From Actinomycetota bacterium (GTDB lineage Bacteria > Actinomycetota > Acidimicrobiia > Acidimicrobiales > JAJPHE01), in the NCBI GenBank assembly GCA_027315345.1, contig DAHUYE010000090.1, forward strand, positions 176,241-240,240: a stretch of DNA of 64,000 nucleotides. The letters run 5' to 3'. Below, in pieces: positions 33,514 through 46,857 of this stretch. Below the pieces are notes generated by a model that searched no databases, had not been told where the DNA came from, and saw only the letters and a list, made by a program, of their open reading frames with translations. The position numbers and the translations under genes were made by a program. The number at the start of each line of letters is the position of its first letter. The first letter of the stretch is position 1.

Positions 33514-34029
33514 TCAGGCTTCGCCCCGGGCGGGGTAGTCCTTGTCGTTGACGTAGCGGATGGCCCCGGCCAGCTCATCGAGGTGGGGACGGCCGAAGGG
33601 CATCGTGTTGATCACCCCTGCGTAGAGCGTGCCGTCGGGCCGGATGACGAACAGGCCCGGTTCCCCGAACAACTCGGGCTCGGCCGGGGTGATCCCCTTG
33701 GACACGTAGAGCCCCCATTCCCGCATGGAGGCCACCTCCTGGCCGTAGCCGACCTGGAGACGGCTCAGGCCCCACTCCTCATAGGAGCGGGAGGCGGCCT
33801 CTTCGCTGTCACCGCTGATGGCCACCACCGAGGTGACCCCTACCTCGGCAAGCTGATCGAGCAGGCCCTCCAGCTGCTTGAGGTAGCCGCGACAGATTGG
33901 GCAGTGGAGACCACGGTAGAACACAACCAGGCTGAAGCGATCAGGATGCTGGTCGGCCAGGGACCATCGGCCCCCACCGACCAATGGCACATCCAAGGCG
34001 GGGACAGGCTGTCGGGGAATCGGTGTCAT
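33514..34029 (-). CDS. AhpC/TSA-family peroxiredoxin-like protein
   Basis: 171 residues with a thioredoxin fold: FYRGLHCPICRGYLKQLEGL holds a CxxC (CPIC) where 2-Cys peroxiredoxins have the peroxidatic Cys, and the later FVIRPDGTLYAGVINTMPFG is typical. It likely reduces peroxides or disulfides. It lies 40 nt downstream of the anti-sigma gene on the same strand, suggesting that the ECF factor controls it. Confidence 0.88.
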   Translation of the reverse strand: MTPIPRQPVPALDVPLVGGGRWSLADQHPDRFSLVVFYRGLHCPICRGYLKQLEGLLDQLAEVGVTSVVAISGDSEEAASRSYEEWGLSRLQVGYGQEVASMREWGLYVSKGITPAEPELFGEPGLFVIRPDGTLYAGVINTMPFGRPHLDELAGAIRYVNDKDYPARGEA

Positions 34030-34069
34030 TGGGTTCCTTTCAGATCGGCCAGGGCGGCCTCGACGCTCG

Positions 34070-34390
34070 TCACTTCCAGACCCGCCTCGGCTTCTTCGCT
34101 CCTGGTGTGCCCTCCGGTGGCAGAGTACGGGTCAGGTTGTTTCCGAAGCCGCGCAGGCGGGCCAGCACCTCGTCGTCGAGCGCCAGTGAGCGGCGGGCCA
34201 GGGCCGACTTGATCTCGGTGTAGGTGGCGGCCTCGAGGCCGCAGCGCCGGCAGGCCTCCAGGTGGGCGGCCACCCGCCGGGCGGTCACCTGGTCGGTGTG
34301 GCCGTCCAGGTAGGACTGCAGCACGCGCATGGTCTGCATGCAACTGGCGGTGTCGCGGCTGCCGAGCAGGCGGCGGGACTTGGTGCTCAT
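34070..34390 (-). CDS. Zinc-binding anti-sigma factor
   Basis: 106 residues with MRVLQSYLDGHTDQVTARRV then HLEACRRCGLEAATY, giving the His-x3-Cys-x2-Cys zinc motif of redox-sensing anti-sigma factors such as RsrA. No membrane segment, so it is soluble. It overlaps the sigma gene (ATGA), the classical arrangement. Release of sigma on disulfide stress is inferred from the family. Confidence 0.88.
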   Translation of the reverse strand: MSTKSRRLLGSRDTASCMQTMRVLQSYLDGHTDQVTARRVAAHLEACRRCGLEAATYTEIKSALARRSLALDDEVLARLRGFGNNLTRTLPPEGTPGAKKPRRVWK

Positions 34391-34980
34391 CCTCTCCTCC
34401 CCGGGGCCAGGCCGGCGGCTACCAGGCGGGCCCGGATGCGCTTGCGGGCCCGGTGCAGCCGGCTCATCACTGTGCCGACCGGCACCCCCATCACTTGAGC
34501 CGCCTCGGCGTAGCTGAGGCCGTTGATGTCCACCAGCTCGACCACGGTCCGGTGGGCATCGGGCAGGGCGGCCAGGGCGTCGGCTACTACCTCGTCGAAG
34601 GCTTCCCCGACCACGATGGCCTCAGGCCCGTCACGGCCGTCAACCGGAGCCAACCGCTCGAGGTCCCGCTGGGGGTCGTCGAGCAACTCGGGACGGCGCC
34701 GGCGGGTCCGGTTTATCTCGGCGTTGCGCATGATGGTGAGAAGCCATGCCCGGGGGTGGGCGCCGTCGAAGCGGTCGATCGACCGGTAAGCCCGCAGCAG
34801 GGTGTCCTGGACCAGGTCCTCGGCATCTGGGGGTCGCCGGGTCAGGGTGGCCGCCACCCGCCAGAGCACCTCGACCTCGGGCAGCACGTAGAGGGCGAAG
34901 GCCGCCTGACGGTCCTCGGGACCCGAATGCGCTGCCGGCTGCACTTTCCGGGAACCCGGCATCACCTCCCACCATTCCAT
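34387..34980 (-). CDS. ECF RNA polymerase sigma factor
   Basis: 197 residues. Region 2 is DAEDLVQDTLLRAYRSIDRF and AWLLTIMRNAEINRTRRRRP. Region 4 is LPDAHRTVVELVDINGLSYA, then EAAQVMGVPVGTVMSRLHRA. It is coupled to a zinc anti-sigma factor and a peroxiredoxin, so it resembles SigR/SigH-type redox response. Targets probably include its own promoter and perhaps the adjacent disulfide oxidoreductase cassette on the other strand. Confidence 0.95.
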   Translation of the reverse strand: MEWWEVMPGSRKVQPAAHSGPEDRQAAFALYVLPEVEVLWRVAATLTRRPPDAEDLVQDTLLRAYRSIDRFDGAHPRAWLLTIMRNAEINRTRRRRPELLDDPQRDLERLAPVDGRDGPEAIVVGEAFDEVVADALAALPDAHRTVVELVDINGLSYAEAAQVMGVPVGTVMSRLHRARKRIRARLVAAGLAPGRRG

Positions 34981-35302: not shown

Positions 35303-35390
35303 GTGAGGTCGTCCTGGCGCGACCTCGGTGGAATGGGGCCCCGGTGAGCGCGGCTTCCCCGTCAAACCTGACCAGCGGAGAGAATTCCTG

Positions 35391-36758
35391 GTGATCTACG
35401 ACCTGATCGTCGTCGGTGGCGGGGCGGGTGGGCTGAGCGCGGCTCGAGCCGGTGTTCGCCGAGGCCGGCGCACCCTGTTGGTCTCCGAGGGCCCTCTTGG
35501 GGGCGACTGCACCTTCACCGGGTGCGTCCCCTCCAAGGCTCTGATCGAGTCCGCCGCCGGCGGCGGCGAGTTCGCCTCGGCCATGGCTCGGGTCAGGGAC
35601 TCCATCACGACCATCTCAGCCACAGAGACCGACGAGGTCCTCGCCGCCGAGGGAATCGAAGTACGCCATGCCCGCACCCGCTTTACCGGCCCGGCGCGCC
35701 TGGAGATCGACCGAACCACGGTCTCAGCCCGCGCCATCGTCATCGCCACCGGCACCCAGGCCGCCATTCCCCCTATCCCGGGGCTGGACGAGCTCGACTA
35801 TCTGACCAACGAGAACGTCTTCCAACTCGAGGTCCGGCCCCGGTCAATGGCCATCCTGGGTGGGGGCCCCATCGGATGCGAGCTGGCCCAGGCTTTCGCC
35901 CGCCTCGGCACCGCCGTCACCCTGATCGAAGCGTTCGACCGGGTGTTGGCCCGGGAGGAGCCGGAGGCGTCGGCGGTGGCCGCTCAGGCTCTGGCCGGTG
36001 CTGGCGTGGCTCTCCGGCTCGGGGTCAAGGCCACCAAGGCAGAACGCGCGGGTGGGGATGGAGGCTTGCGCGTGCAGCTGGACAATGGGGGGTCGGTTCT
36101 GGTCGATCAACTGTTGGTGGCCGTGGGGCGCAGGGCGGTCATCGCAGACCTCGATCCGGCTGCGGGCGGCGTTGACCTGGATGAGCGGGGTTTCGTTCGC
36201 ACCGATGAGCACCTGGCCACCACAGCCAAGGGGGCCTGGGCTGTCGGGGATGTGGCCGGCAAGCTGCAGTTCACCCACGCCGCCGATGAGATGGGGCGCA
36301 TCGCCGTGCACAACGCCTTCTCCCGCCTTCCGGACCGACGCTTCCGGTCGCAGTGGACGCCGTGGGTGACCTTCACCGATCCCGAGGTAGCCCGGGTAGG
36401 CATAAGCGAGGCAGAAGCGGCCCGACGGGGAGCCCGTGTGGCCTACCTGCCCATGGCCGAGGTCGATCGCGCCGTCACCGCCGGGCGGACCGAAGGTTTC
36501 ATCAAGTTGGTGGTGGGGCCCCGGCGTGTCTCGCGTAACTTGGCGGGTGGTCGGCTGCTCGGGGCCACGGTGGTGGCTCCCCGGGCGGGTGAACTCATCG
36601 GGGAGTTGACGCTGGCTTTGCGAGCGGGCATGTTCCCGGCCCGCTTGGCCCTCACCGCTCATCCCTACCCCACCTGGTCGATGGCCATCCAGAAGGTGGC
36701 GGCCCAGCTGTTCATGGACGTCGAGGGTCGCCGCGCCCGCCCGGCCCGGTCAGACTGA
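35391..36758 (+). CDS. FAD-dependent pyridine nucleotide-disulfide oxidoreductase
   Basis: 455 residues. The FAD motif is IVVGGGAGGLSAARAGVRRG, the redox disulfide is Cys40/Cys45 (GGDCTFTGCVPSKALI), the NAD(P) motif is MAILGGGPIGCELAQAFARL, and the C-terminal interface reads HPYPTWSMAIQ. The usual HxxxxE base has Ser in place of Glu. It lacks the C-terminal Cys-Cys of MerA, so it is not mercuric reductase despite similarity. It may reduce the glutaredoxin or thioredoxin-like partners that follow. GTG start at 35391, with GGAG 10 nt upstream. Confidence 0.88.
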   Translation: MIYDLIVVGGGAGGLSAARAGVRRGRRTLLVSEGPLGGDCTFTGCVPSKALIESAAGGGEFASAMARVRDSITTISATETDEVLAAEGIEVRHARTRFTGPARLEIDRTTVSARAIVIATGTQAAIPPIPGLDELDYLTNENVFQLEVRPRSMAILGGGPIGCELAQAFARLGTAVTLIEAFDRVLAREEPEASAVAAQALAGAGVALRLGVKATKAERAGGDGGLRVQLDNGGSVLVDQLLVAVGRRAVIADLDPAAGGVDLDERGFVRTDEHLATTAKGAWAVGDVAGKLQFTHAADEMGRIAVHNAFSRLPDRRFRSQWTPWVTFTDPEVARVGISEAEAARRGARVAYLPMAEVDRAVTAGRTEGFIKLVVGPRRVSRNLAGGRLLGATVVAPRAGELIGELTLALRAGMFPARLALTAHPYPTWSMAIQKVAAQLFMDVEGRRARPARSD

Positions 36759-36854: not shown

Positions 36855-37184
36855 GTGGGTTTCCGACCCGTGGACTCATTCAGTGCACCAGGCGCCGTTA
36901 CCGTCTATGTGCGCCCGGGCTGCCCGTACTGCGTCTCGCTCCGCCGCCGCCTCCGGCGGTCTGGAGTGCACTTCGACGAGGTCGACATCTGGCAAGACCT
37001 CGAGGCAGCCGCGTTTGTACGCTCGGTGGCAGGCGGGAACGAGACGGTCCCGACGGTGGTCGTGGGTGACCACGCCCTGGTCAACCCGGCGGCCCGTCAG
37101 GTGCTCCAGCTGGCCGGCGGAGCCGGCGAGGGGGAGATGCGGCGGCGCTGGATGGGGAGATGGCTTCAGCGCCAAGTTCGATGA
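36855..37184 (+). CDS. Glutaredoxin-like protein
   Basis: 109 residues with the active site Cys23-Pro-Tyr-Cys26 in AVTVYVRPGCPYCVSLRRRL and the cis-Pro segment NETVPTVVVGDHALVNP. Mycoredoxin-like length plus a C-terminal basic tail (RRRWMGRWLQRQVR). It probably passes electrons from low-molecular thiols or from the upstream FAD enzyme to cassette proteins. Its stop overlaps the next ATG. Confidence 0.88.
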   Translation: MGFRPVDSFSAPGAVTVYVRPGCPYCVSLRRRLRRSGVHFDEVDIWQDLEAAAFVRSVAGGNETVPTVVVGDHALVNPAARQVLQLAGGAGEGEMRRRWMGRWLQRQVR

Positions 37185-37621
37185 GAATGGGACAGATAGC
37201 CGGGGTGGTGGGACAGGGCCTGGCCGCAGGACTGGTCGGCATGGCCGCCATGACTGTGTCGGGCACGCTGGAGGCCAAGGTCCGCCACCGCCAGGCCAGT
37301 ACCGCCGCGGCCAAGGTGTTGGGGGGCAAGCCTGCGAGCGAGCGCTCCGAGCGCCGTTTCAACAACCTGGTGCACTGGGGCTACCGGACGGGCTGGGGGG
37401 CGGCAAGGGGTCTGTTGGGTGCAGCGGGACTCGCCCGTGTCCCGGCTACGGTGGCCCACCTGGGCGCGGTGTGGGGCGGCGAGCAGGTGGTCCTTCCGGC
37501 CAGGGGAGCTTCGCCGCCGGCCTGGCGTTGGGAGAAGGCCGAGGTAGGCATCGACTTGTCTCACCACGTCGTGTACGTGTCGGCTACCGGATTGGCCCTG
37601 TCTTGGCTGGAACGGCCTTGA
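37181..37621 (+). CDS. Small membrane protein of the selenodomain cassette
   Basis: 146 residues with Gly/Ala-rich hydrophobic segments (GVVGQGLAAGLVGMAAMTVS; YRTGWGAARGLLGAAGLARV) and a C-terminal HHVVYVSATGLALSWLERP helix. It resembles DUF1440/YagU-like proteins. The ATG at 37181 makes the ATGA overlap seen throughout this operon, so it is preferred to the ATG at 37160. Its stop overlaps the TTG of the radical SAM gene. Function unknown. Confidence 0.7.
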   Translation: MRMGQIAGVVGQGLAAGLVGMAAMTVSGTLEAKVRHRQASTAAAKVLGGKPASERSERRFNNLVHWGYRTGWGAARGLLGAAGLARVPATVAHLGAVWGGEQVVLPARGASPPAWRWEKAEVGIDLSHHVVYVSATGLALSWLERP

Positions 37622-39036
37622 AGGCACTCGGGTCCTGGCTGCGTCGGCTGGAACGGGCCACCCGGCCGGTCGATCCCGAGTTCGTAGAAGCCATGGCCCG
37701 CCGTTGGGACGAGCTGCCCGAGCACGTGAAGGTGCCGGGCCAGGTGCTCGGGCGCCACGCCGTGGGCTGTGAAGGCACCCACGGCGTGTTCCCCCGGTGC
37801 AACTTCACCTGCACCCCCTGCTACCACTCGGCCGCGGCCAACGCCGTGCGGGTCGACGGGGTCCACACCGTGACCCAGGTGGAGGCCCAGATGGCCTTCC
37901 TACGCTCACGTCGGGGTCCGGCGGCCCACGCCCAGCTCATCGGCGGGGAGGTGAGCCTGCTCGAGCCGGAGGACCATGCTGCGGCCCTGTCGATCATGCG
38001 CCGCTACGGCCGGGAGCCCATGAGCTTCACCCATGGTGATATCGACTACGACTACCTGACCACGCTGGCCCTGGACGCCTCGGGCCGCCCCCGCTTCCGG
38101 CGGCTGTCCTTCGCCGGCCACTTCGACACCACCATGTTCGGCCGCCGCGGCATCCGCCGGCCGGAGAGTGAGGCCGACCTGGAGCCCTACCGTCGCCGCT
38201 TCGCCGCCCTGTTCGCCCGCCTGCGGGCCGAGCACGGGGTGAGCTACTTCCTGGCTCACAACATGACCGTTACCCCTTCCAACCTGGGTTCGGTAGCCGA
38301 GGTCGTCCGCCAGGGGGCGGACATGGGTTATTCCATGTTCTCCTTCCAGCCGGCGGCTTTCGTGGGTAACCAGAAGCGCTGGAAGGAGGACTACCGGGAC
38401 ACCTCGGGGGACCAGGTATGGGCCGAGATCGAGGCCGGGGTGGGCTGTGAGCTGGACTACACCGTCTTCCAGCATGGGGACCTGCGCTGCAACCGGGTGG
38501 CCTACGGCTTCTATGTGGGCCCGAAGTGGTTCCCGGTGCTGAGCTCGACCCCGGCGGACCTGGCCACCCGGGACGCCTTCTACCGCTCCTTTGGGGGGAT
38601 GCTGTTCAACAACACCCCTCCCGCCGTGGTGGCCGCGCGCATCGCCCGGGCGGTGGCCCGCCGTCCGGTGGTGGTCCCCATGGCCCTGGCCTGGTTGATC
38701 CGCACGGCCCGTCGGGTCGGATGGGCCCACCTGGCCCGGCACCGCCGGATCCGCCCCGTCAGCTTCGTCATGCACTCCTTCATGGACGCCGCCGATGTGG
38801 CTCCCGCCTGGGAGCTCATGACCCGGGGTATCCAGAGCGACGATCCCCAGATCCAGGCCACCCAGGAGCGCCTGGCTTCGTGCCACTACGCCATGGCCCA
38901 TCCCGAGAGCGCGACGCTGGTGCCCGCCTGCGTGCAGCACAGCGTCTTGGACCCCGACGAGAACCGCCAGCTGGCCGAGCTGCTCCCGCTCAAGCTGGGC
39001 CCGACCCGCCGGCGGGCAGCCGGGACGGTGGGCTGA
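37618..39036 (+). CDS. Radical SAM enzyme
   Basis: 472 residues from a TTG that overlaps the preceding stop. The [4Fe-4S] motif Cys61-x3-Cys65-x2-Cys68 lies in FPRCNFTCTPCYHSAAAN. A GGE-like SAM contact follows in AQLIGGEVSLLEP. The C-terminal ~200 residues contain several Cys (VGCELDYTV, DLRCNRVAYG, LASCHYAMAH) that could hold auxiliary clusters. It is not ArsS or a known SPASM family that I recognise. It makes a 5'-deoxyadenosyl radical; the target is unknown. The downstream phosphorylase could recycle its 5'-deoxyadenosine or MTA. Confidence 0.9.
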   Translation: MKALGSWLRRLERATRPVDPEFVEAMARRWDELPEHVKVPGQVLGRHAVGCEGTHGVFPRCNFTCTPCYHSAAANAVRVDGVHTVTQVEAQMAFLRSRRGPAAHAQLIGGEVSLLEPEDHAAALSIMRRYGREPMSFTHGDIDYDYLTTLALDASGRPRFRRLSFAGHFDTTMFGRRGIRRPESEADLEPYRRRFAALFARLRAEHGVSYFLAHNMTVTPSNLGSVAEVVRQGADMGYSMFSFQPAAFVGNQKRWKEDYRDTSGDQVWAEIEAGVGCELDYTVFQHGDLRCNRVAYGFYVGPKWFPVLSSTPADLATRDAFYRSFGGMLFNNTPPAVVAARIARAVARRPVVVPMALAWLIRTARRVGWAHLARHRRIRPVSFVMHSFMDAADVAPAWELMTRGIQSDDPQIQATQERLASCHYAMAHPESATLVPACVQHSVLDPDENRQLAELLPLKLGPTRRRAAGTVG

Positions 39037-39038
39037 GG

Positions 39039-39584
39039 GTGCCCCGTCGGGAGCAGGTCGCCACTTCCCTGGCCGGCGTGGCCCTGGTCGAAGCCCGCAG
39101 CGGCGCCAGCGTCGAGCTCGCCTCGCTGCTCGGCGTGCAGGTGCTGAGCGCCATCCGGCACCGGTACTGACTGCCGTGTCAGGAGCACCTGGTTCAGGTG
39201 CAGGAGAAACTGGCCGGTCTGGACGTGGGCCGGGTGGCCGTCGGCTTCAGTCCGCCCGACGCCCTGGCCGCCCTGGCCGAGCACATCTCCTGGTCGGGGC
39301 TCATGCTTTCCGACGTCGACCGCCGGCTCTACGCCGCCCTGGGCCTGGGCCGGGCGCCGCTCTGGCGGGTCTACTCGGCGGGCACCCTGATGCGCTACGC
39401 CAAGGCCGTGGCCCGGGGCCATCGCCTGACGCGCCCGGTCGAGGACACCCAGCAGCTGGGTGGGGACGCCGTGGCCGTCGACGGGATGGTCGTCTGCCGG
39501 TGGCGCCCGCGCAGTCCCGACGACCGGGTGGATCCCGACGAGCTGGCCGAGGTCGCCTCCGACTACGCCCGGGGCCGGAGCTGA
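39039..39584 (+). CDS. Putative selenoprotein: thioredoxin-fold AhpC-TSA_2-like protein with UGA-encoded Sec
   Basis: The frame runs from GTG 39039 to the stop at 39584 and is broken only by TGA at 39168-39170. Read as Sec it gives 181 residues with Sec44-Leu-Pro-Cys47. The upstream part (ALVEARSGASVELASLLGVQ then VLSAIRHRY) and downstream part (LPCQEHLVQVQEKLAGLDVG, IGF-like VAVGFSPPDALAALAEH, then LSDVDRRLYAALGLGRAPLW) form one continuous peroxiredoxin-like domain, in which relatives carry RHxxCxPCxEHLxQL. Sec replaces the first Cys. A perfect 7-bp hairpin starts 14 nt after the TGA. Standard callers would report only a headless ORF from 39198. Selenocysteine is inferred; a nonsense mutation is the alternative. 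Confidence 0.8.
39185..39201 (+). promoter_or_regulatory. SECIS-like hairpin after the in-frame TGA
   Basis: GCACCTG and CAGGTGC form a perfect 7-bp stem closed by GTT. The loop begins 21 nt after the TGA and starts with G. Bacterial SECIS elements place an apical loop about 16-37 nt after UGA with a G at the first or second loop position, so this fits. Confidence 0.7.
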
Positions 39585-39588
39585 ACCC

Positions 39589-39654
39589 ATGGACGCCCGC
39601 AAGGTGGAGGTGAACACGGTGGAGGCGAACAGTGTGCAGGTGAAGAGGTCGTGA
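39589..39654 (+). CDS. 21-codon coupling ORF
   Basis: A 21-residue frame (MDARKVEVNTVEANSVQVKR plus Ser) begins 5 nt after the selenoprotein stop, and its TGA overlaps the GTG of the phosphorylase gene. It shows an internal V-x-V-N / V-E-A-N repeat. It may be a translational coupling peptide rather than a functional protein. Confidence 0.4.
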   Translation: MDARKVEVNTVEANSVQVKRS

Positions 39655-40439
39655 AGGTCGGGATCATCTCCGGATCGGGCACCGACGCCTGGCCCGGCGC
39701 GCCCGAGGCCGGGCGGACCCGGGTGGAAACCCCCCACGGTCCGGTGGAACTCACCCGGGGCCGTCTGGGCGGGGCCGAGCTGGTCCACATCTCCCGTCAC
39801 GGCACCGGCCATCACCACCTTTCCAACCACGTCCCCCACCGGGCCCACCTGCGGGCGCTGCTGGACGAGGGGGTGGACTGCCTGTTCTCCCTGACCGTCT
39901 GCGGTGCGGTCGACCCCAAGGCGACACCGGGCACCCTCGTCGTCTTCGACGACCTCTACTTCCCCTCCAACCGTCTGCCCGACGGCAGCGTGTGCACCTG
40001 GTACCAGGAGCCAGGAGAGCCGGGCCGGGGCCACTGGATCTTCGACCGGCCCTTCTCCGAGACTCTGCGCCAGGTCCTGATAGGAGGAGCCGAGGCGGCC
40101 GGTCTGGCAGTCCTGTCACGGGGCTGCTACGGACACGTGGACGGGCCCCGGTTCAACAGTCGGGCGGAGATCGCCGCGCTGGGCGGGGCCGGGGTGACGG
40201 CGGTGAGCCAGACGGCCGGGCCCGAGGTCGTCCTGGCCGGAGAGGCCGGGCTGCCCATGGCTCTGCTGGGCTTCGTCACCGACTATGCCAACGGGGTCGC
40301 CCTCGAGCCCGAGTCGGTGGATCAGCTGCTGGCCCGGGTGGAGGCCAGCACGGCCGTCTTCGCTGCCGCCGTGGAGGGCGCGGCGGGGATCATGACCACT
40401 GCGGAGGCCCCCGGCTTCGTCCACCGGTTCGGCCCGTGA
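39651..40439 (+). CDS. MTA/purine nucleoside phosphorylase family enzyme
   Basis: 262 residues of the MTAP/PNP fold: VGIISGSGTDAWPGAP, the HISRHGTGHHHLSNHVPHRA phosphate/ribose region, FSLTVCGAVDPKATPGTLVV and the C-terminal GLPMALLGFVTDYANGVAL with the base-contacting Asp. It phosphorolyses methylthioadenosine or 5'-deoxyadenosine-type nucleosides to a sugar-1-phosphate. In this operon it could recycle the radical-SAM by-product or cleave an adenosyl-conjugate intermediate to leave a modified sugar. Overlaps both neighbours by 4 nt. Confidence 0.88.
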   Translation: MKVGIISGSGTDAWPGAPEAGRTRVETPHGPVELTRGRLGGAELVHISRHGTGHHHLSNHVPHRAHLRALLDEGVDCLFSLTVCGAVDPKATPGTLVVFDDLYFPSNRLPDGSVCTWYQEPGEPGRGHWIFDRPFSETLRQVLIGGAEAAGLAVLSRGCYGHVDGPRFNSRAEIAALGGAGVTAVSQTAGPEVVLAGEAGLPMALLGFVTDYANGVALEPESVDQLLARVEASTAVFAAAVEGAAGIMTTAEAPGFVHRFGP

Positions 40440-41092
40440 AGGACCCCGCCGTGCTGGTCATGGCCAAGACCCCCCGACCCGGCTCGGTCAAGACCCGCCT
40501 GGGCCCGCTCCTGGGCCCGGAGGGCTGTGCCCGTCTGGCCGCCGCCCTCCTGCGCCACACCCTGGCCCTGGCCCGGGAGGTGGCGGCGGGACGGACCTAC
40601 CTGGCCTTCGACCCTCCCGGTTCGGACCCCGAGCTGGACGGCCTCGTCTGTGCCGACGTGGAGATCTTCGCCCAGGAGGGCACCGATCTGGGCCGGCGGC
40701 TGGAGGTGGCCACCACCCGGGTCCTGGGCGCCCACCATGGTCCGGTGATCGCGCTCGGCACCGACGCACCCACCCTCACCGCCGAGATCCTCCAGGAGGG
40801 TGCCGATTCGCTCCGCTCGGGAGCCGACGTGGTCTTCGGCCCCGCTCTGGACGGCGGCTACTACGCCGTGGGCCTGGCCCGGCCCCTGCCCCCGGTGTTC
40901 GACCTGGACAGGTCCCTGTGGGGAGGTCCCGACGTCCTGGCCGCCAGCCTGGCCCGGGCCCGCTCGGCCGGGGCGCGCGTCGGGATGCTGCCTTCGCTGC
41001 GGGACCTGGACACCCCCCTCGACGCCCTGGCCCTGCTGGAAGATCCCCGTCTGCCAGCCGAGATAGCCGACTGCCTGGCCGGGCGCCCATGA
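40436..41092 (+). CDS. TIGR04282-type transferase (rSAM/selenodomain-associated transferase 1)
   Basis: 218 residues with a nucleotidyl/glycosyl-transferase-A fold like CofC/MobA: VLVMAKTPRPGSVKTRLGPL (nucleotide-binding, KTRL), VIALGTDAPTLTAEIL, and the signature DVVFGPALDGGYYAVGLARP. The family was named for its linkage to radical SAM and selenodomain proteins, and is also found in arsenosugar clusters. GTGA overlaps the phosphorylase gene. It probably activates or transfers a sugar-type group. Confidence 0.88.
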   Translation: MKDPAVLVMAKTPRPGSVKTRLGPLLGPEGCARLAAALLRHTLALAREVAAGRTYLAFDPPGSDPELDGLVCADVEIFAQEGTDLGRRLEVATTRVLGAHHGPVIALGTDAPTLTAEILQEGADSLRSGADVVFGPALDGGYYAVGLARPLPPVFDLDRSLWGGPDVLAASLARARSAGARVGMLPSLRDLDTPLDALALLEDPRLPAEIADCLAGRP

Positions 41093-41859
41093 CCGAGAAC
41101 GGCCAGGCCCGGGTCTCTATCGTCGTCCCGGTGCTGAACGAGGCCGCCATCATCGAGTCCTGCCTGAAGCGTCTCGGCTCGGACTTTCCCGACTGCGAGT
41201 TGATCGTGTCCGACGGCGGCAGCACGGATGCCACCCGCGCTCTGGCCTCCCGCTTGGCCACCGTGGTGGACGCTCCGCCCGGGCGGGCCCGCCAGATGAA
41301 CGCCGGCGCCGCCCGGGCCGGCGGCGACGTGGTGTGGTTCATCCACGCCGACACCGTCATAGAGTCCTCGGCCCTGGAGATGGTCCGCTCCGCCCTGGCC
41401 GATCCGGCGGTGGTGGCCGGGGGCCTGCGTATCCGCTTCGACCGCCGCTCCTTGGGCCTGGACTACCTGGCCTGGTCGTCCAACCTGCGGGCCCGGCGCC
41501 TGCACTGGATCTTCGGTGACCAGGCCATGTTCGTCCGCCGGTCGGTCTTCACCGAGCTCGGCGGCTTTCCCGACCTGGCCATCCTGGAGGATCTGGAGAT
41601 GTCCCGTCGCCTCCACCGGAAGGGGCGCCTGACCATGATCCCGGCCTCGTCCACGGCCTCGTCGCGACGCTTCGTGGACCACGGCACCTGGCGGATGATC
41701 GTGTTCATGCAGTACCTCAAGGCGCTGTACTTCGCCGGGGTCGATCCCGCCGCCATCGCCGAGCGCTACGCCCGGGGCCCTCGTCTGGTTCCCGGCCCCC
41801 GCCGGGTCCGCCGGGCCGCCCTCGCCTCGTCACCGACCAGAGAAGAGATGACCAATTGA
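41089..41859 (+). CDS. TIGR04283-type glycosyltransferase 2 (rSAM/selenodomain-associated transferase 2)
   Basis: 256 residues of GT2: VSIVVPVLNEAAIIESCLKR, IVSDGGSTDATRA, the family marker GRARQMNAGAARAGGDVVWF with the HADT metal-binding site, and FGDQAMFVRRSVFTELGGFP followed by LEDLEMSRRLHRKGRL. The combination with the TIGR04282-type gene is the diagnostic pair of the rSAM/selenodomain system. ATGA overlap with transferase 1. Donor and acceptor are unknown. Confidence 0.9.
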   Translation: MTENGQARVSIVVPVLNEAAIIESCLKRLGSDFPDCELIVSDGGSTDATRALASRLATVVDAPPGRARQMNAGAARAGGDVVWFIHADTVIESSALEMVRSALADPAVVAGGLRIRFDRRSLGLDYLAWSSNLRARRLHWIFGDQAMFVRRSVFTELGGFPDLAILEDLEMSRRLHRKGRLTMIPASSTASSRRFVDHGTWRMIVFMQYLKALYFAGVDPAAIAERYARGPRLVPGPRRVRRAALASSPTREEMTN

Positions 41860-43271: not shown

Positions 43272-44960
43272 ATGAGCCGCATCGCCGTCTGCGGAGGACC
43301 CTACGGGAATCCCTACGCCCTGGCCGCCTTCGTAGCCGACGCCCGATCCCGGGGCGCCCAGCGCCTGGTCTGCCTCGGGGACCTCGGAGGCTTCGGCGCC
43401 GAGGTCAACGCCCTGTGGCCGATCCTGTGCGAATCCGGCGTGGAATGCGTGGCGGGCAACTACGACGTCGCCATCGCCCGGGGCGATCCCGACTGCGGCT
43501 GCGGCTATCGCGATCCGGCCGACAACTACTTCGCCCAGCTCATCTACGACCACACCCTGGCCCACACGGACCGGGACTTCGCCACCTGGATGGGCCAGCT
43601 TTCCACCGAAAGGCGGGAGCGCATCGACGGCGTGGACGTCCACCTCGTCCATGGCTCACCCCTGGCCCTCAACGACTTCTGGTGGGAGTCCCTACCCGAG
43701 GCCGAGCACCGGGTGCGGGTAGAGGCCAGCGGCGCCGACCTCATCCTCTGCACCCATAGCGGCCTGCCCTGGCAGCGCCGGGTGGACTCGACCCTGGTCG
43801 TCAACGTCGGGGTACTGGGCAAGCCGGCCAACGACGGGCGGAGGAACGTCTGGTACACCATGGTGGATCTCGACCAGGGCCGGGCGGAGGCCGAGCTGAT
43901 CCCCCTCGACTACGACTGGGCCGCCCAGGCCGCCTCCATGCGCTCGGCCGGGTTGCCCGAGGCCTTCACCGAGACCATCGAGACGGGGTGGTGGACGACC
44001 TGCATCGAGGTGCTCCCGCCCGCCGAGCGGGCCGCCGGGCGGTACCAACTCTACCGCAGCTCGCTGCCGAAGGGATTCCGGCCGGCGGCGGGCTCCTGGA
44101 GCCCGGAGGATCCCGACGCCGCGGCCATGGACGACCGCCCGGTGGTGTCCCTGTTCGGGACCCTCTACTTCCCGGCCCGGCTGTGGATCTACTCGAACTT
44201 CCACTGCAACCTGTCCTGTGACTACTGCGCGGTGGCATCCTCACCTCGGGCTCCTCGTCGCCAGCTGAGCCCGGAGAGATTTCGGTCCCTCATCGACGAG
44301 GCCGTGGCCGAGGAGTTCGCCGAGATCTATGTGACCGGCGGTGAGCCGTTCCTGCACCCCGGCATCACCGACATGCTCCACTACTGCGCCCAGCGCCTTC
44401 CCACCGTCGTGCTCACCAACGCCATGCTCTTCGGCCCCCGCCGAGCCCCGGACCTAACCCGTCTGGCCGAGACTGGCCGGCTGGTGATCCAGACGTCCCT
44501 CGACGGCGCTCGGCCCGCCACCCACGACCTGCACCGGGGGCCGGGATCCTGGGAGCGAACCGTGGCCGGCATCCGCCAGGCGGTTGCGGCTGGCTTGGTC
44601 TGCCGGGTGGCGATGACCGAGACAGCTGAGAACACCGAGGACGTGCCGGCTATGGGATCACTGATGAGGGACCTCGGAGTTCCCCCGGAGAACTTCGCCG
44701 TCCGGCCCCTGCTGCACCGGGGCGCCTCCGACGCCGGCTTGGACATCGATGACGGCACCACCGTCCCTGAGCTGACCGTGACCGCCGACGGCCTGCACTG
44801 GCATCCCGCCGGGGCCGACGCCGCCACCAGCCCGGACATGGTGGTGGCCACCGACGGCCAGGTCCCACTGGCGGTCGGCAAGCGGATCGTGATCGAGAGG
44901 TTCTTCGCCGCCCGGCTGGCCGATGGCTCCCTTCCCCAGCCGTTCCGCTGCGCTATCTGA
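43272..44960 (+). CDS. Metallophosphoesterase-radical SAM fusion protein
   Basis: 562 residues. Residues 1-~230 are a calcineurin-like phosphoesterase: CGGPYGNPYALAAFV, LVCLGDLGGFG, VAGNYDVAI, VHLVHGSP and CTHSGLPW give the metal ligands, although the first motif lacks the canonical DxH. From ~300 comes a radical SAM domain with Cys312-x3-Cys316-x2-Cys319 (FHCNLSCDYCAVASSP), YVTGGEPFLHPGIT and TSLDGARPATHDLHRG. The fusion couples a phosphate-removing step to radical chemistry. It is the last gene of the cassette, 9 nt after the MFS gene. Substrate unknown. Confidence 0.88.
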   Translation: MSRIAVCGGPYGNPYALAAFVADARSRGAQRLVCLGDLGGFGAEVNALWPILCESGVECVAGNYDVAIARGDPDCGCGYRDPADNYFAQLIYDHTLAHTDRDFATWMGQLSTERRERIDGVDVHLVHGSPLALNDFWWESLPEAEHRVRVEASGADLILCTHSGLPWQRRVDSTLVVNVGVLGKPANDGRRNVWYTMVDLDQGRAEAELIPLDYDWAAQAASMRSAGLPEAFTETIETGWWTTCIEVLPPAERAAGRYQLYRSSLPKGFRPAAGSWSPEDPDAAAMDDRPVVSLFGTLYFPARLWIYSNFHCNLSCDYCAVASSPRAPRRQLSPERFRSLIDEAVAEEFAEIYVTGGEPFLHPGITDMLHYCAQRLPTVVLTNAMLFGPRRAPDLTRLAETGRLVIQTSLDGARPATHDLHRGPGSWERTVAGIRQAVAAGLVCRVAMTETAENTEDVPAMGSLMRDLGVPPENFAVRPLLHRGASDAGLDIDDGTTVPELTVTADGLHWHPAGADAATSPDMVVATDGQVPLAVGKRIVIERFFAARLADGSLPQPFRCAI

Positions 44961-45351: not shown

Positions 45352-46857
45352 TCATACCGCGCAGCAGGAAAGGCGGGACACGTCACGGGTGAAGGTTTGT
45401 GCAGTCAGCTTCAGCCCTTCGGCCATGGTGAGATAAGGCGACCAGGTTTGGGCCAACTGGTTGACCGTCATGTCGTTCTTGATGGCATAGACCACGGCTG
45501 CGATCACGTCACCGGCGTTGTCGGCCAGAATGTGGGCGCCGAGCAAGCGGCGGCCTCCAGCCTCGGCCACGAGCTTGAACAGCCCCCGGGTGTCGCGGTT
45601 GACCAGAGCGCGGGGCAAGGCGCCGAGTCCCAACACTCTCGACTCGACCGCAAGCCCCGCATCGTGGGCCTCCTGCTCGGTCATACCGGCCGAGGCGATC
45701 TGCGGCGATGTGAAGGTCACCCGGGGCATGGCCTTCCAGTCCATCGTTCTGCCCAACTTGGCGATGGCGTTGTCGGCGGCGATGGCGCCCTGGGCGGCGG
45801 CCACGTAGACGAACTGAGGGGCACCGGTGACATCACCCGCCGCCCAGATGCGCGCATTGGTGGTTCCCTGGAAGTCGTCGACCCGTATGGCACCCCTGTC
45901 GTCCAGGTCCACGCCAACCCGATCGAGTCCCAAGCCCGCCGTGTTGGGACGGCGTCCGGTGGCGACGAGTACCTGGTCACACTCAACGCGCTGCTCCTCC
46001 CCCGCCACGGCAAAGACCACCGTGCGACGCGGACCGGTGCGCTCCACCCGGCTGACGCGGACACCGGTGTGGACCTCGGCCCCCTCGTCGCGCAGCAGCT
46101 CCGCCATCGCGGCGGAGATCTCTGGTTCCTCGAACGGCGCCACCCGGTCGAGCGCTTCGAGGAAGGTGACCCGGCTGCCGAGATGGGAGAACAGCTGACC
46201 GATCTCCAGGCCGATGGCGCTGGCGCCGATGACGACGAGGGAGCCGGGCATCTCCTTGAGCTCCAAGGCGGTGGTGCTGGTCAGATAGCCGGCCTCTGGC
46301 AAGCCGGGGATGGACGGCGCGGTGGGCGCCGCGCCGGTGGCGACCAGGTACTGCTCGGCGTGCATCTCGCCGCCTCCGCAGCGGAAGCCGTCACCGTCGG
46401 AGAATTCCCCCCGGCCGCACAGCAGCGCGAAGCCGTACTCCTCGGCCAGATGCTCGTACTTGTCGTAGCGCATGGTGTCGACCAGCTCGTCCTTGGCCGC
46501 CACCATGGTGGCGAGGTCGACCGGTCCGGCCTGGGTGGCGACCCCGGGGAAGGGACCGTGGCCGGCCCGGTGGCGCAGGTCGGCCGCGGCCAGCATGGCC
46601 TTGGACGGCACGCAACCCACGTTCACGCAGGTGCCCCCGACGGTGCCGGCCTCGCAGAGAGCCACGCTGGCCCCGAGGTCCTTGGCCCGGATGGCGGCGG
46701 CGAAAGCGGCGCTACCGGAGCCCACGACGATCAGGTCGTACTCGGCCACCGGGGCCGGTCCCCGCCGGTGCTCCGGTCCCCGCCCGGGCTGACCGGCAGG
46801 CCGGTGCGGGGCGTCCCGAGAAGCCGTCTCCTCCTCGTTGCGCATCGGCGTAGTCAT
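45352..46857 (-). CDS. merA: Mercuric reductase
   Basis: 501 residues. FAD motif IVVGSGSAAFAAAIRAKDLG, redox disulfide in VGGTCVNVGCVPSKAMLAAA, NAD(P) motif VIGASAIGLEIGQLFSHLGS and the C-terminal mercury-binding Cys498-Cys499 (RLSCCAV). The N-terminal HMA domain is absent and replaced by a 38-residue charged extension, as in actinobacterial MerA. It reduces Hg(II) to Hg(0) using NADPH. Its start overlaps the ArsR-type regulator stop by 4 nt. Confidence 0.95.
   Translation of the reverse strand: MTTPMRNEEETASRDAPHRPAGQPGRGPEHRRGPAPVAEYDLIVVGSGSAAFAAAIRAKDLGASVALCEAGTVGGTCVNVGCVPSKAMLAAADLRHRAGHGPFPGVATQAGPVDLATMVAAKDELVDTMRYDKYEHLAEEYGFALLCGRGEFSDGDGFRCGGGEMHAEQYLVATGAAPTAPSIPGLPEAGYLTSTTALELKEMPGSLVVIGASAIGLEIGQLFSHLGSRVTFLEALDRVAPFEEPEISAAMAELLRDEGAEVHTGVRVSRVERTGPRRTVVFAVAGEEQRVECDQVLVATGRRPNTAGLGLDRVGVDLDDRGAIRVDDFQGTTNARIWAAGDVTGAPQFVYVAAAQGAIAADNAIAKLGRTMDWKAMPRVTFTSPQIASAGMTEQEAHDAGLAVESRVLGLGALPRALVNRDTRGLFKLVAEAGGRRLLGAHILADNAGDVIAAVVYAIKNDMTVNQLAQTWSPYLTMAEGLKLTAQTFTRDVSRLSCCAV

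Follow-up and report, generated by a model that had tools for sequence, protein, structure and literature searches.

Reading frame around the internal TGA

A gene in an Acidimicrobiales (Actinomycetota) genome raises the question of whether a TGA codon in its interior ends translation or is read as selenocysteine (Sec). The gene lies in a 64,000-nucleotide stretch of DNA, called the window here. As originally predicted, the frame that opens at 39039 is interrupted only by the TGA at 39168-39170, the sole in-frame stop ahead of the terminal one. When this codon is read as Sec, the product has 181 aa and contains the sequence YULPC (U44, C47). In the same frame, the standard ORF list holds only 39198-39584 (GTG start, 128 aa). 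Because this ORF starts after the TGA, the N-terminus and active site of the selenoprotein are lost, a consequence that the original prediction had foreseen for ordinary gene calling. The G+C content of the three codon positions was 81/51/93% upstream of the TGA and 80/50/93% downstream of it. The composition is thus unchanged across the codon, indicating that a single reading frame continues. The GTG start follows the stop codon of the preceding radical SAM gene by 2 nt, and in the Actinomycetospora relatives the corresponding position is likewise the start of the gene (VPRRDD.., VPHRDD..). From the evidence presented below, we are highly confident that UGA 39168 is translated as Sec and that this residue belongs to the active site of a small redox protein resembling peroxiredoxins. 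The features of the locus are collected in Table 1.

Table 1. Coordinates of the putative selenoprotein gene, its candidate recoding signals and its neighbours in the window
Feature	Position	Strand	Remarks
FAD-dependent pyridine nucleotide-disulfide oxidoreductase	35328..36758	+	MerA/lipoamide dehydrogenase-like, below MerA cut-off; candidate electron donor; several relatives have it next to the selenoprotein gene
Glutaredoxin, mycoredoxin family	36855..37184	+	TIGR02200 above cut-off; G177 also has it next to the selenoprotein gene
Radical SAM protein	37600..39036	+	Coordinates of the searched frame; probable true start near 37600; contains CNFTCTPC
Putative selenoprotein gene	39039..39584	+	GTG start 39039; stop TGA 39582-39584; 181 aa including Sec44; SelL-related / AhpC-TSA_2 (PRXL2-like) redox protein
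Putatively recoded TGA (Sec, U44)	39168..39170	+	Motif U44-L-P-C47; basis: TGA conservation in homologues
Candidate bacterial SECIS hairpin	39185..39201	+	7 bp, GCACCTG-GTT-CAGGTGC; loop GTT, its G at +22 from UGA
MTAP/PNP-like nucleoside phosphorylase	39651..40439	+	In G671, located after the same radical SAM gene
TIGR04282 family glycosyltransferase-like protein	40436..41092	+	Above cut-off
TIGR04283 family glycosyltransferase	41056..41859	+	Above cut-off; syntenic in Actinomycetospora
Calcineurin-like metallophosphoesterase-radical SAM fusion	43272..44960	+	Rv1681-like; syntenic in Actinomycetospora, 60% identity

Protein family and predicted fold

The residues on the two sides of the TGA had been predicted to join as one domain, and the AlphaFold model (43 sequences; pLDDT 96.3, pTM 0.91) bears this out. 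The model is a single, confidently predicted thioredoxin fold, with position 44 directly before helix 45-58. Among solved structures, human prostamide/PGF synthase and the PrxQ/Bcp peroxiredoxins are the nearest in fold. Among NCBIfam families, the only match was NF040769, SelL-related redox protein (82.8 bits, E 2e-23, residues 19-171). The cut-off of 120 bits was reached neither in hmmscan, where the score was that given above, nor in the genome search (74.0 bits). Members of the closest clade scored 85-100 bits, and two same-order members of a sister group scored 111 and 146 (the latter, L033, 145.5). With clade scores of 74-100 bits, all below the cut-off, standard annotation would miss the clade. 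Pfam AhpC-TSA_2 (PF13911) narrowly exceeded its gathering threshold (28.1 bits vs 27).

In the tree, the gene's own clade stands apart with a support of 100/100. The protein nevertheless fits one alignment and one tree with L033, and it shares common ancestry, fold and motif with the NF040769 members above cut-off. Invariant across the alignment are R-H-x2-[UC]-x-P-C-x2-H and QLG, the invariant residues including R40, H41, position 44, P46, C47, H50, D136, Q139-G141 and R163. By its alignment and placement, then, the protein appears as a divergent, sub-threshold relative of the known NF040769 family. Since NF040769 already recognises the family, this is a new sub-threshold member and not a new kind of protein. 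The HUIPC motif thioredoxin-like selenoprotein family (NF047660) was considered as well, as two relatives read HUIPC, and it did not match them.

Conservation of the TGA among homologues

Scanning 298 genomes of the same order revealed a homologue in 41, with a TGA inside the match in 40 of them. UxPC was in register in all 29 same-order loci that were loaded and examined, and the sole same-order exception was L035, in which a deletion removes the motif region. In a sample of 396 genomes across the phylum, 20 had a match, and the match contained a TGA in every one (20/20). With an alignment as the query, a contig scan across named genomes returned 78 loci, where a single-protein query had returned no match. 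The same-order and named-genome scans yielded 79 distinct TGA-containing proteins from three phyla. Among the inspected loci, those covering the motif have U at this column in Pseudonocardia, Actinomycetospora, Geodermatophilaceae, Nocardioidaceae, Ilumatobacter, Chloroflexia and Gemmataceae; some Planctomycetota motifs are UIPC or UxAC. In Pseudonocardia nigra DSM 104088, the gene occurs in two complete copies with TGA, and one further match is partial (L120, L121, L129).

One Cys homologue was found, in Limnoglobus roseus (L172), with CMPC placing Cys in the same column as the TGA. In the tree, this form falls among the Sec forms of Gemmataceae, which is the pattern expected for Sec/Cys exchange. 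An in-frame UGA thus occupies a conserved redox position that carries Sec or Cys in homologues. The TGA had been predicted to sit where relatives have the first Cys of CxPC. It does fall in the redox motif, UxPC, but the relatives nearly all have TGA, and Cys was seen in Limnoglobus roseus alone.

A TGA could also arise by a nonsense mutation in a former Cys gene or by a sequencing error. The assembly is fragmented and contains the gene only once, and a homologue with Cys does occur, as such an origin would have it. However, the same TGA recurs in dozens of independent genomes, which excludes a sequencing error, and the gene has no other in-frame stop, strong conservation on both flanks of the codon and the unchanged codon-position composition described above. 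The genome also has a complete Sec machinery. Given a TGA conserved across families and phyla, mutation or error is refuted in practice, and we assign it almost no probability.

Selenocysteine machinery

Had the sel genes been absent, the prediction would have been in doubt, but selC, selD, selA and selB were all found above family cut-offs in the source genome (3.84 Mb, 98% complete, 106 contigs). The selC gene scored 65.6 bits vs a cut-off of 47. The four genes form a cluster of ~4.3 kb on contig C80 (50.3-54.5 kb), a contig other than that of the selenoprotein gene. Among same-order genomes, selA was present in 39 of the 41 that bear a homologue vs 140 of the 257 that do not (Fisher P=8e-8, uncorrected for kinship). 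A TGA-containing gene with no selA match (E<=1e-40) was found in two genomes, G018 (L031; 96% complete) and G063 (L039; 78% complete). The missing selA may reflect bin gaps or loss of the trait.

A candidate SECIS hairpin downstream of the TGA

A hairpin shortly after the UGA, whose apical loop has a G near its start, was taken as the criterion for a bacterial SECIS. The hairpin that had been predicted here is indeed a perfect 7-bp stem with a G-starting loop, but its distance of 21 nt from the TGA required correction: the stem begins 15 nt after the UGA, and the loop G lies 22 nt after it. When synonymous codons were shuffled, 5.7% of the trials matched the strength of the hairpin (P=0.057). 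A role as SECIS is plausible, but the hairpin is only marginally better than codon-matched chance and, taken alone, is no more than suggestive. In the gene's own clade, pairing is kept throughout at six of the seven pairs with hardly any variation, five of the seven never varying. The hairpin there varies too little for a covariation test to be informative. In the sister group, the hairpin spans +19 to +39, both sides changed in five of eight pairs, and none of 500 shuffles (0/500) reached its covariation score, a control that does not fully remove coding constraint and kinship.

The putative SECIS is placed differently in two sister groups of the protein family, from +15 to +31 with a loop of GTC, GTT or GTG in L022-L028, and from +19 to +39 with a loop that is mostly CGTGC in L029-L050. 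An Rfam search of the window from 35 to 45.5 kb found nothing relevant.

The marginal P value of the gene's own hairpin, together with the GTG at 39198 that permits an ORF of 128 aa, would fit a UGA that is read otherwise, either by near-cognate readthrough or as the end of a short separate N-terminal ORF, followed by a downstream start. Against this, the N-terminal part, with the first strands of the fold and UxPC, is conserved, and with it the model forms one complete, confidently predicted domain. Moreover, the UGA codon itself is kept without drift to a sense codon, and the distribution of the gene follows that of selA. Such a reading is very unlikely, and we infer that Sec is inserted. 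The original prediction of an unannotated selenoprotein is thus supported by the sel genes, by the TGA at the same codon in homologues and by the single thioredoxin fold.

Gene neighbourhood and its conservation

The genes in the window are ordered as follows: FAD disulfide reductase, mycoredoxin, radical SAM protein, selenoprotein, nucleoside phosphorylase, TIGR04282, TIGR04283, MFS transporter and phosphoesterase-radical SAM fusion. The two "rSAM/selenodomain-associated" transferases named in the original prediction are the TIGR04282 and TIGR04283 proteins, both above their NCBIfam cut-offs. As an argument for a selenoprotein, their names alone are weak; but synteny in relatives makes part of the neighbourhood real evidence. 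No NCBIfam family matched the radical SAM protein above cut-off, and its resemblance to Tes and TrsS is weak. Its relatives are 60-67% identical, have an invariant CxxxCxPC and occur beside the selenoprotein or in the same genomes, in Pseudonocardiaceae and others. By these similarities, the protein would belong to an unnamed conserved family. Internal TGA codons in these relatives were considered and rejected, as those TGAs are terminal stops. An arsenosugar cluster was likewise rejected. The best match to ArsS (TIGR04167) in the genome scored 49.4 bits vs a cut-off of 300, and with a true ArsS missing the locus does not strictly qualify as an arsenosugar cluster, though TIGR04282 and TIGR04283 are above cut-off.

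Other redox genes lie nearby in the window. A mercury(II) reductase, MerA, is encoded at 45352-46857 on the minus strand (TIGR02053, 566 v 454 bits), with CC near its C-terminus. A CxxC AhpC/TSA protein (33514-34980, minus strand) stands beside an ECF sigma factor gene and a small putative anti-sigma gene. Pseudonocardia nigra (L120) has the sigma pair in the vicinity of its selenoprotein gene too, which suggests redox-responsive regulation.

Two Actinomycetospora have the genes for the selenoprotein, the FAD reductase, the radical SAM protein, the TIGR04283 protein and the phosphoesterase-radical SAM fusion together. A Geodermatophilaceae bin (L122) has radical SAM, selenoprotein and FAD reductase genes in this order and in one direction, and the G671 bin has radical SAM, phosphorylase, TIGR04282, TIGR04283 and MFS genes together. 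In the Acidimicrobiales clade L022-L028, no shared cassette surrounds the gene, whose neighbours are AMP-binding, ABC-transporter and other unrelated genes, and the radical SAM gene is absent from the genomes. Since this clade keeps the selenoprotein without the cassette, the link between the two is not a strict one.

This clade, and several Pseudonocardia copies with no radical SAM gene within 3 kb flanks, would suit a real selenoprotein that acts as a stand-alone peroxide or disulfide reductase, its proximity to the radical SAM gene being incidental. Yet the radical SAM association recurs, with varied gene order, in Actinomycetospora, Geodermatophilaceae, Nocardioidaceae and the source genome, and the FAD reductase adjoins the gene also in L060 and L162 and is near it in L131. 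We regard a stand-alone enzyme as possible without favouring it. In the source strain and its closest relatives, we lean towards a selenoprotein that serves or protects a conserved radical-SAM cassette, probably as one of its redox partners. A further step can be proposed only tentatively: the selenoprotein might be the dedicated redox partner of a natural-product or cofactor pathway conserved in Actinomycetota, whose members could include two radical SAM enzymes, a nucleoside phosphorylase, two glycosyltransferases and an MFS transporter.

Proposed mechanism and significance

Herein, we outline how the protein might be made and act. The genome's own SelA, SelB, SelC and SelD would decode UGA 39168 as Sec, probably aided by the hairpin. 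The fold and motif point most naturally to selenol chemistry in two redox steps, with Cys47 as the resolving residue. Sec44, at the N-terminus of helix 1, would attack an oxidised substrate, which may be a disulfide or a peroxide, and Cys47 would then resolve the intermediate via a Se-S bond. The neighbouring FAD disulfide reductase and/or the mycoredoxin may re-reduce the selenoprotein. Judging from synteny, those served or protected would be the radical SAM enzyme, the radical SAM-phosphoesterase fusion and the TIGR04282 and TIGR04283 transferases.

Through the truncated gene calls and the NF040769 scores below cut-off, the whole clade is probably mis-annotated, including in the cultured Pseudonocardia nigra and Actinomycetospora cinnamomea. 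The recurrent place of the gene beside a radical SAM enzyme and an FAD disulfide reductase offers a testable link between selenium and a radical-SAM pathway in organisms amenable to culture. If the selenoprotein were a dedicated partner, a radical-SAM pathway of Actinomycetota would depend on selenium.

Comparison with known selenoproteins and thioredoxin-fold enzymes

The literature searched, itself incomplete, yielded no description of the clade or the cassette. SelL is a Prx-like protein of aquatic animals and marine bacteria with a UxxU diselenide. It has been named as a Prx-like selenoprotein (PMC2398784). The 181-aa protein resembles SelL in its related Prx-like fold and in having Sec in a CxxC-equivalent motif, whereas the second motif position is Sec in SelL (UxxU) and Cys here (UxPC); the relation rests on the NF040769 name. 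Related Prx-like thiol:disulfide oxidoreductase selenoproteins with UxxC or UxxU (PF00578) and an AhpC/TSA cd02970 selenoprotein with UxxS have been listed in a review (PMC13188914), in a text that contains neither NF040769 nor PF13911. PF13911 (AhpC-TSA_2) has been assigned to the UxxS member (PMC9312934). The likeness to these proteins lies in the peroxiredoxin-like fold and in Sec at the first motif position, while the cd02970 entry has UxxS in place of the UxPC found here, which is preceded by a conserved RH and followed by a conserved H.

The top Foldseek match was human prostamide/prostaglandin F synthase (PRXL2B; 9us9, 9usa; E 1.4e-9, 23% identity), with a VIA-align Z of 17.2 and an rmsd of 2.8 over 155 aligned residues. 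Its redox pair is C44/C47, the residues mutated in 9usa. PRXL2B is a Cys-form animal enzyme, and a prostaglandin-like substrate is unsupported for the 181-aa protein. With NF040769, the protein shares fold and redox motif, but its clade scores below the cut-off and its nearest members stand beside the radical SAM cassette. What is new is this context: the same radical SAM enzyme and FAD disulfide reductase accompany the gene in its Actinomycetospora and Geodermatophilaceae relatives.
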